Part shown: in pieces, positions 4,783 through 7,610 of the stretch
Position numbering within the stretch: the stretch's first letter is position 1
Layout of the letters: every line of letters begins with the position of its first letter
NCBI GenBank assembly: GCA_031179845.1
Contig: JAPSHM010000005.1
Location: 1-36,790 of the forward strand
DNA: 36,790 nucleotides
Origin: Pedobacter sp.
GTDB taxonomy: Bacteria; Bacteroidota; Bacteroidia; Sphingobacteriales; Sphingobacteriaceae
Direction: 5' to 3'
The notes under the pieces: model-generated
Told to the model about the DNA's origin: nothing
The model's database searches: none
What the model saw: only the letters and a program-made list of their open reading frames with translations
Made by a program: the position numbers and the translations under genes

Positions 4783-6012
4783 TCATTGCGTAGCCAATTC
4801 TCGTTTCTTTTTCATGTGCCTTTGTAGCCCAGAGCCAGTATAATGCGGATGTTTACGCAGTTCATTGATGTTTATCCTGAGTTGCTGACCTTTGCGCCAT
4901 AGAAAACCTCCGGCAGTTAGCGTATGGCCATTTACCGCCAGGTGAATGTTCGTATTGTCTATTTGAGTTGCTCTGGCCGCCGCAACGCAATTTTTGAATG
5001 TCTTTATCCAGCGTCCGTCTAAGTCATACTGCGATATGCCCGACCTGCTGATGGTGATTTTTGGGTCAACTACAATTTTCTTTTTGATGACTTTACTCCA
5101 TATAAAACCGCCGTAGGTTAAACCTCTTCCGTTTATTACGTTTCGGATTCCGTTTTTATGGACCCTGACTGCTTTTGCGGCTTCTACAGTGTTGATATAT
5201 GTGTTGACAAGATTTCCATCCAGGTCATATTGCCCAATAATGTGTTGCTGTTTGGCTAACGGTGAATGGCCATACCACCTCTCCTTCAAAATCGGTTTGA
5301 GATCAAGCTCCGGTTCGCTGCCACGCCTCCAAAGATAACCGCATGCAGTAACAACTTTGCCAGTGTCTCTGGCAGCAATTGAAATGTATCCCTGTGCGGT
5401 GTTCATCGCTTCTGCTGCGATTCTTGCGTTAGAATAGGTTTCCAGCAATTGACCTGTTAACGAATATCGGCTGACATTATATGTGCCCTTCGCCTTTTTG
5501 GTTGCCTTTATTTTCTCACGACTTTTTTGCTTTGATTCCTCGCTGAATTCCGGGAAGAAGGATCTCCTCCTACCTGAAGCCATCATCCGTGCAGCTTTGT
5601 CTTTTGGCGTGCCTAATAGTAGATTCTCCGCGCGCAAATTCAGATTATCTCCATCCTTAGGAAATACCAGAAGTTGTTTGTTAGAAAGATCAAAGGCTTC
5701 CACAAAGCAATAGTAAACCAGTCGCGCTATACTCAGATAATGTCTTTTATTCGCTGAAGATAGTGTGATCCCGGCATACTTCGCCGTATCTCCGGTCTGC
5801 AAGTTCTGGCTTTCGGAGATAATTGTCTTGATGATCATGCAAGGTTTGTGCCTTGCAATGCCTTTTTTATCGATGGAGGTTTTCTCCAATCTGCGTACTC
5901 TCCCTAGATTTGAAACCTCATATGGCGCATCCAGTTTTGGAATGGGTGCCCATAATTCGCCTGGGAGAGCATCAGGCGAAAGGTTTTCGTATGGATAATT
6001 CATATTTGGCAT
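4783..6012 (-). CDS. NUMOD4 protein with degenerate HNH region and three NUMOD1-like repeats
   Basis: Free-standing protein built like an HNH homing endonuclease. A NUMOD4 motif lies at 17-45 (ELWAPIP...YEVSNLGRVRRL) and an HNH_3-like stretch at ~94-136 (ARLVYYCFVEAF...FPKDGDNLNLRAENL). Three repeats of ~50 residues follow at 179-231, 258-306 and 326-374, each of the form YxLxG...AA...GGFLW; such repeats bind DNA in NUMOD1-type nucleases. The histidines expected in HRLV and NHxDGN are Ala and Pro here, so cutting activity is probably lost while DNA binding may remain. It starts MPNMNY; Met4 is an alternative. A near-consensus -7 box (TATATTTA, minus strand, 6021-6028) lies just upstream. It is divergent from the 6496 gene. 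It may be a relict mobile gene or a domesticated DNA-binding protein. Confidence 0.8.
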   Translation of the reverse strand: MPNMNYPYENLSPDALPGELWAPIPKLDAPYEVSNLGRVRRLEKTSIDKKGIARHKPCMIIKTIISESQNLQTGDTAKYAGITLSSANKRHYLSIARLVYYCFVEAFDLSNKQLLVFPKDGDNLNLRAENLLLGTPKDKAARMMASGRRRSFFPEFSEESKQKSREKIKATKKAKGTYNVSRYSLTGQLLETYSNARIAAEAMNTAQGYISIAARDTGKVVTACGYLWRRGSEPELDLKPILKERWYGHSPLAKQQHIIGQYDLDGNLVNTYINTVEAAKAVRVHKNGIRNVINGRGLTYGGFIWSKVIKKKIVVDPKITISRSGISQYDLDGRWIKTFKNCVAAARATQIDNTNIHLAVNGHTLTAGGFLWRKGQQLRININELRKHPHYTGSGLQRHMKKKRELATQ

Positions 6013-6495
6013 TTTGGATGTAAATATATTAGTTTAGATATTTATTTGGTTAATTAAATTTCGTTTTATTTTTATTCGTATCGTAATGATCGCTTATAAC
6101 AATCCAAATAGCTTTTGGTTTATTTTTATTGTTAATTTATACAGTCTAGATAAATAAATTTGGATAGGACTAATGGTTTGTATTCAGCTTCTTGTAACGC
6201 TTTTATCTCTGGTTCTATTCTAAATTTTAGACGAAAAAGTGTAAAGGCTGTTAGATTTTCTGAATAAAAAATCAAGTTGGTGTCAATTTTGTATGCATTT
6301 TTCAATTACACTTGTCTAAATAAGTGATATTTGATCGTTAGTCATCTTATGATCAGATATAGCATTAAATTATTGCTTTTTTTAACTTAAATTGTTCGAA
6401 ATTGTGTTCGATTTTATTTTGTTTTGCTGTTATTTGCAGTGTGTTTAGAAGATTTAATTTTTTTTTAGATATTTCAGGATATTAAATCTCATTGT
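6013..6495. other. AT-rich divergent intergenic region, no gene seen
   Basis: About 480 bp, clearly more AT-rich than its neighbours, between two divergent genes. No ORF or RNA gene is recognisable. The words TAGTTTAGATA, AGTCTAGATAAAT and TGTCTAAATAAG recur (near 6030, 6142 and 6314) and resemble half of the palindrome in the 1226 promoter. CACTT/AAGTG (6309-6326) and TGATC/GATCA (near 6332-6355) form small inverted repeats. No full TTTG-N19-TAnnTTTG promoter was found for the 6496 gene. Confidence 0.5.
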
Positions 6496-7182
6496 ATGGC
6501 CAATAAAAAGATTTTGAAAGTCGGATTAGATTCTGCAGCACCGTTTCCTATGCACTCGAATTATAATTCCAAAATTTTTGAGGGTTTCGAGGTCGATTTA
6601 CTCCAGGCGATAGCAACTTACCTTAACTTAAATATTCAATATGAAGTTTCTTTATGGTCAAATATATTGGAGAAGTTATTCAAAGGTGAATTAGACACCA
6701 TCTGTTCGGCGGTAACAGTTACACCTTCCCGTCAGCATATACTTGAGTTTAGCAACCCCTATCTGTATTTCCGCTTATGTGCTATTGTCGCTGACAATGT
6801 TTTCTTAACCAATCTTCAGGACTTTAAAAATAAAACCATCGGAGTACGGGAGGCTACAGAGGCAGAAAAATATGTGCGTACACAGTTTCCTTCAAATACA
6901 ATCGTATTTGCGGCTACTAATAAGGAATTATATCGTAAGCTGCAGGCCGGGAAAATTGATTTGTTGGTAGATGATTCCCCAATAGCAGGGGGGTTCCTGC
7001 AAAAGAATAAGAATTTAAGAATTGGGATGTTTCTACCGAATACGGATTCCGCCTACGCGATTGCTATGAAAAAGGGAGATAAACAACTTAAACTGCAGTT
7101 CAATGAAGCTTTGACCTTTCTTAGAGAGAATGGAACCTATCAGAAACTTTATAAAAAGTGGTTTGAAGAGATCCAGTTTTAA
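6496..7182 (+). CDS. Family 3 solute-binding-like protein without signal peptide
   Basis: The whole 228-aa protein has the fold pattern of amino-acid-type periplasmic binding proteins (SBP_bac_3): EGFEVDLLQAIATYLNL, the lobe-1 ligand motif TVTPSRQ (Arg79), FSNPYLYF, the lobe-2 GVREATEAEKYVR and LLVDDSPIAGG (Asp159/160). These positions normally hold the carboxylate and amino groups of an amino acid. It has no signal peptide: the N-terminus is MANKKILKVGLD, and an in-frame TAG at 6466-6468 leaves no room upstream. It should therefore be cytosolic unless exported unusually. No transporter permease or ATPase is adjacent, so a sensory or enzymatic role (cyclohexadienyl-dehydratase-like folds exist) is possible. 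Its 3' end overlaps the next gene by 4 bp, tail to tail. Confidence 0.8.
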   Translation: MANKKILKVGLDSAAPFPMHSNYNSKIFEGFEVDLLQAIATYLNLNIQYEVSLWSNILEKLFKGELDTICSAVTVTPSRQHILEFSNPYLYFRLCAIVADNVFLTNLQDFKNKTIGVREATEAEKYVRTQFPSNTIVFAATNKELYRKLQAGKIDLLVDDSPIAGGFLQKNKNLRIGMFLPNTDSAYAIAMKKGDKQLKLQFNEALTFLRENGTYQKLYKKWFEEIQF

Positions 7183-7610
7183 TCTTGGTCGGCAACAATT
7201 GTTATTTCTTTACTTAATTTAACGGTATGGAGAACTCCGGTTCTCTCACTGTATACGACTACCCTTTGCTCATCTAAAAATTGTACCAACCGATAGGGCG
7301 AAGAGCGTTGTACATACCTCCATTGTGTGTAAAATTGCTCCTGTAATGATTTTTCTTCCGGCAAAAAAGTAATGGCTATCTCGATGTCCGTAACATTGCT
7401 GATAAAAAAAATATTGTTCATTTCAGTGATTTGTTTTCCAGCAGAGGTATTTGATAGCTCATTGATGGCTTGTTTCCTTATGTTTTCAACCGGTTCGGAA
7501 GGGTTTCTTTTGATGAAATCTACAATGAAGTTGTTGACTTCATCCTTGTTTTTTAGAAGCTTACCGTTTCCAATCTTTATAATTTTAAAATAGATCTTGA
7601 GTGGTTTCAT
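7179..7610 (-). CDS. Hypothetical protein, 143 aa
   Basis: I do not recognise this protein. It is soluble, charged at the N-terminus (MKPLKIYFKIIKIGNGKLL), helical in the middle (NNFIVDFIKRNPSEPVENIRKQAINEL), with a beta-rich second half (IFFISNVTDIEIAITFLP, RLVQFLDEQRVVVYSERTG). It has no signal peptide or membrane span. It converges on the binding-protein gene, with a 4-bp overlap of the stop codons. The coherent amino-acid composition and lack of a competing plus-strand gene support it as real. The upstream 165 bp shared with sucD shows no clear promoter for it. Confidence 0.6.
   Translation of the reverse strand: MKPLKIYFKIIKIGNGKLLKNKDEVNNFIVDFIKRNPSEPVENIRKQAINELSNTSAGKQITEMNNIFFISNVTDIEIAITFLPEEKSLQEQFYTQWRYVQRSSPYRLVQFLDEQRVVVYSERTGVLHTVKLSKEITIVADQD

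Follow-up and report, generated by a model that had tools for sequence, protein, structure and literature searches.

The gene at positions 4783-6012 of the window, which is the whole stretch of 36,790 nucleotides analysed here from the Pedobacter sp. contig JAPSHM010000005.1, codes for a protein that resembles a homing endonuclease and from which the catalytic residues of the nuclease have disappeared. The usual expectation for a selfish nuclease is that it spreads, degenerates and is lost; such a gene could be a remnant on its way out or a protein that the host has put to use.

The gene is a single unbroken frame of 409 codons, with the ATG at 6012 and the stop at 4783, and is present in one copy in its own genome assembly (Table 1). 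The first-pass annotation, made from the sequence, had described it as NUMOD4, an HNH-like part and three NUMOD1-like repeats; Pfam agrees with this architecture, which is common to six orthologues. The NUMOD4 match has an E-value of 1e-6, NUMOD1 (PF07453) is matched in three stretches (E 1.7e-13, 50.8 bits versus a curated cut-off of 22.8), and HNH_3 leaves a sub-threshold trace only, at residues 119-139 (E 0.06); the PHROGs matches are the HNH endonuclease families phrog_59 and phrog_1492. In the predicted fold, the NUMOD4/HNH block is confident (pLDDT mostly about 77-91) and is followed by three strand-helix-turn-helix-strand repeats, the linkers and the relative placement of the parts being of low confidence (pTM 0.36). 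The sole significant PDB match of this fold, found with Foldseek, is I-HmuI bound to DNA (1u3e, E 2e-9). Since the same parts occur in six orthologues and the three repeats are predicted as three such units, the architecture is far from chance.

Table 1. Features of the gene, its 5′ end and its divergent neighbour, in window coordinates
Feature	Positions	Strand	Remarks
Full ORF	4783-6012	-	409 aa: NUMOD4, inactivated HNH, three NUMOD1, basic C-terminal tail; six syntenic orthologues
NUMOD4 motif	5854-5958	-	residues 19-53; Pfam PF07463 above cut-off
HNH-like region without catalytic residues	5593-5742	-	residues 91-140; phage alignment, family survey, predicted fold (pLDDT about 79-90, I-HmuI match)
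NUMOD1 repeat 1	5320-5478	-	residues 179-231; pN/pS 0.047
NUMOD1 repeat 2	5092-5241	-	residues 258-307; pN/pS 0.041
NUMOD1 repeat 3	4888-5037	-	residues 326-375; pN/pS 0.051
C-terminal tail	4786-4887	-	residues 376-409; short paralogues keep the tail too
SBP_bac_3-domain protein, divergent neighbour	6496-7182	+	adjoins the gene at all six orthologous loci
Nucleotide-level conserved element	5863-6108	-	spans codons 1-50 and about 95 nt ahead of the ATG; may be an operator or an RNA element
Perfect 8-bp inverted repeat TTCGCCTG-N9-CAGGCGAA	5956-5980		arms 5956-5963 and 5973-5980; one pair covaries

Alignment with 13 phage NUMOD4-HNH proteins places A96, F117, P118 and L126 at the H, N, H and N positions of the HNH centre, the motif HRLV..VNHxD..NN..NL having become ARLV..VFPKD..NL..NL, with N125 and N130 kept; the two histidines reported as missing from ARLV and FPKDGD thus correspond to A96 and P118. 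The general base of I-HmuI and one of its metal ligands are presumably among the replaced positions. All four replacements are identical across the six orthologues, and a search for an intact HNH motif at the same locus yielded none, the six syntenic copies all being dead. In four remoter long Pedobacter members (38-48% identity) the first H is changed to A or P and the NH to FP or LY, and the catalytic positions are replaced in all 10 long members of this genus. A survey of 31 pseudo-HNH domains, taken from Sphingobacteriaceae and from a small number of other genomes in the class, found the NH histidine in none and the first H in a single one (L070), with replacements that vary from subgroup to subgroup; the histidines are therefore absent throughout the clade, the point that the first-pass annotation had proposed to examine, and in the family likewise, save for that one residue. 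Both are kept in 18/18 distinct phage HNH domains and in the three unrelated Pedobacter HNH proteins (L079, L081 and L084), and the loss, being found throughout the relatives and outside them nowhere in these two sets, is old and family-wide. A 389-aa protein of a genome from the same class and another family (G057; L006/L192) carries two tandem pseudo-HNH domains, and histidines are absent in both.

Orthologues of about 90% identity are found in five further species, including copies 89-91% identical in P. hiemivivus, P. nyackensis and Pedobacter sp. ok626. The locus is common to all six species: an SBP_bac_3-domain gene and a hypothetical gene adjoin, and sucD comes next where the contig extends that far. 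No mark of mobility or recent invasion was seen, the gene lying outside introns, inteins and phages, at a fixed place in six species at saturated dS. The window-type long form is present in 6/147 Pedobacter genomes and any member of the family in 20/147, which makes the gene dispensable. The SBP gene was considered as a bound partner and rejected, since it is present in 56/147 Pedobacter genomes, many of them without the NUMOD gene, yet stands beside that gene in the six only; in three genomes the SBP-sucD cluster is kept and the NUMOD gene is absent there. The SBP_bac_3 protein shows no obvious signal peptide at its predicted start. Between its gene and sucD, the orthologous loci contain a conserved 143-aa protein without a Pfam family (7179-7610, minus strand), with about 64% identity and faster evolving than its neighbours. 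Outside the window-type clade, no conserved neighbour points to a regulon.

Phage and plasmid searches returned distant and partial matches only, with no near copy, and these elements were ruled out as recent donors. A dead, patchily distributed protein that is predicted to bind DNA and is derived from homing enzymes could serve as a protective blocker, occupying a homing site against active relatives (anti-homing) or limiting other mobile elements, and the PADLOC models for homing endonucleases match it; however, searches of Pedobacter, phages, plasmids and the sampled genomes of the class yielded no close relative that is intact, and the intact relatives are distant (20-30% identity), which makes such a role unlikely.

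The family also includes ten distinct short Pedobacter proteins (about 240-290 aa), located at other loci, which are devoid of the NUMOD4-HNH part and keep the three repeats and the C-terminal tail; these repeats-only paralogues are conserved too. A tree of the part common to long and short forms puts the window type among the short ones and long forms on the deeper branches, and monophyly of all short forms is weakly rejected (p 0.034). On these sequences, the best reading is that of a long ancestor that would have lost its N-terminal part, probably more than once; loss and regain of this part is a possible alternative history. In other genera of Sphingobacteriaceae, the number of repeats in the long forms varies, reaching five in L066. 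Each subgroup has its own locus, indicating that the gene moved between subgroups in the past, and it is stable inside the window-type clade. No operon partner of the short paralogues is constant, the neighbours changing from locus to locus. In L035, L044 and L045 (Pedobacter G104, G074 and G075), which look syntenic from gene order, a short NUMOD1-triplet paralogue comes immediately after a gene of the same direction, which in L035 is cdaA, a di-adenylate cyclase with CdaA_N and DAC domains; a long paralogue adjoins recA in L047 (G073), with the same gene order in L048 (G114). The long relatives L058 and L067 have an extra helical C-terminal tail, GFEKGKI...NLI..FGFSNEEAARAAGVP, which is apparently similar to the end of Rpn-type transposases.

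Between the window type and the short paralogues, repeat 2 is the best kept (74% identity), and the HTH identity to the short forms is 69% in this middle repeat versus 49% in repeat 3. Modular repeats could bind without specificity, as expected of an RNA-binding, maturase-like protein or of a nucleoid-structuring one rather than of a specific regulator, and some homing endonucleases became maturases (PMC3943268); against this, the conservation of the middle-repeat HTH across paralogues, while the other repeats vary, suits the reading of a sequence, and no Rfam match was present at the 5′ end of the gene or in its upstream region, so that this explanation too appears improbable. A protein that is still a nuclease, by means of other ligands or of the active site of a partner, is very unlikely: the HNH-like domain has a conserved fold that is predicted with good confidence, and acidic residues are available in KDGD, but all four catalytic positions are replaced in the six orthologues, the NH histidine is retained by no family member, the replacements differ by subgroup, and the paralogues persist without the entire domain.

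Selection was estimated as pN/pS, by a simple Nei-Gojobori count over the six orthologues and for each domain. The pooled pS is 0.71, i.e., saturated, and the pooled pN is 0.056, giving an overall pN/pS of 0.08 that is conservative because of this saturation; by part, the ratio is 0.04-0.05 in the repeats and 0.07 in the HNH-like region, and no frameshift or stop occurs in any of the six genes. The repeats had been described as well kept and evenly spaced: the conservation stands, as the dN/dS-type comparison proposed at the time bears out, while their spacing, about 78 and then about 68 residues, is regular and not exactly even. The low value in the HNH-like region means that the inactive domain is selected for and is not drifting, and the conservation of this nuclease-like domain itself indicates replacement, not decay; the word "decayed", under which the gene had been entered, has to be dropped. 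Ordinary decay of a stranded homing endonuclease, which would account for the lost catalytic residues and for the patchy presence among Pedobacter, is hardly credible in the face of six uninterrupted orthologues, of such ratios across saturated synonymous divergence and of the substituted A96, F117 and P118 fixed in 6/6. The proposal of a domesticated DNA-binding protein, as opposed to random decay, thus gains support from the absent histidines and the conserved repeats, its DNA binding and host function being putative.

Binding to the region 6013-6495 had also been suggested; this region is mostly not conserved, and what is conserved are the approximately 95 nt adjoining the gene and then 150 nt of coding sequence. 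Within codons 1-50, 25 of the 37 comparable codons are invariant over six species, and few are past codon 50. As a control, 19 neighbouring genes were compared in five of the six genomes: since many of them are often equally conserved in codons 1-30, this portion is not special, whereas in codons 31-50 the mismatch of 0.17 is below that of every control gene (0.27-0.60, apart from a gene at 0.20 in which just two codons could be compared). The inverted repeat has the consensus TTCRCCTG-N9-CAGGYGAA across orthologues, and at one of its pairs two species have G-C and the other four A-T, via synonymous, compensatory changes. The nucleotide conservation is not seen in other pairs of family members, and was rejected as a general feature of the family; a second copy of the element in the genome was sought, and none was significant. 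A conserved RNA structure was likewise rejected, with single-sequence z-scores of only -0.7 to -2.3 and little covariation beyond the one stem pair. An antisense ORF (5765-5998, plus strand) overlaps the 5′ end of the gene, and the antisense frame is open in 6/6 orthologues over codons ~8-50, which probably just follows from how little this stretch has diverged; it was discarded as the cause of the conservation, because its third codon positions coincide with those of the sense frame and it would not suppress synonymous change. The element with its inverted repeat suits an operator or an mRNA hairpin, and is a lead in this direction. There are precedents for both in homing endonuclease genes, namely the autorepression of I-TevI, for an operator (PMC3943268), and RNA structures at translation starts (PMC3014915).

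Taken together, the catalytic residues that align are replaced family-wide, the six species share one locus for the gene, and strong purifying selection acts on the entire protein, the dead HNH domain included. A dead gene kept at one chromosomal place under such selection suggests a use by the host as a protein that binds DNA and is probably regulatory. Judging from sequence and fold comparisons, it is rather likely to be a domesticated descendant of an I-HmuI-like HNH enzyme, a non-cleaving DNA-binding protein that would act as a regulator or a road-block and would possibly be self-limiting. The extended protein would still lie along a long DNA site, through its NUMOD4/HNH part and the three NUMOD1 HTH units, and, being unable to cut this site, would act by occupying it, the simplest form of which would be transcriptional regulation or a road-block. 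More weakly, the promoter of the gene together with codons 1-50 (5863-6108) may be one of its binding sites, and binding there would limit its own expression. A broader and doubtful version of this proposal is that Sphingobacteriaceae possess an old, distinct pseudo-HNH/NUMOD family of modular DNA-reading regulators, variable in repeat number and in some cases reduced to the repeats, of which the window member would regulate itself via an operator or RNA hairpin over the promoter and first 50 codons. In the collection of papers searched in full text, NUMOD1 is mentioned in six, none of which deals with this family in its title or abstract. With cutting lost, and the dead fold and the DNA-binding repeats kept over a long divergence, the family would represent a clean case of a homing endonuclease turned host protein, and the series of long forms, forms with other repeat numbers and repeats-only forms could reveal the way in which DNA is read by modular NUMOD1 units.

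Compared with the known systems, the protein is above the cut-offs of both the NUMOD1 and NUMOD4 families of Pfam, and scores 31.1 bits with TIGR01453, the group I intron endonuclease model, below the curated cut-off of 56.05. Viral NUMOD4-HNH-NUMOD1 and GIY-YIG-NUMOD1x3 proteins (L112-L145) have homologous domains, with a triple NUMOD1 in L113; unlike the Pedobacter protein, to which they are 20-30% identical, their HRLV...VNH motif is intact in each of the 18 distinct HNH domains compared. The T4 autorepressor I-TevI offers a similar arrangement, in which the DNA-binding region of a homing endonuclease, by binding close to the 5′ end of the gene that encodes it, would repress that gene (PMC3943268); however, I-TevI lies in an intron and is active as a GIY-YIG nuclease, whereas the Pedobacter protein has no nuclease and its binding is putative. 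The phage HNH homing endonuclease I-HmuI shares the order of the parts, i.e., a NUMOD4-type segment, the HNH, linker helices and the NUMOD1 HTH; the Pedobacter protein differs from it in the replaced catalytic H, N, H and N and in having three NUMOD1 repeats, and its gene is chromosomal and resides at a fixed locus, outside any intron or phage.
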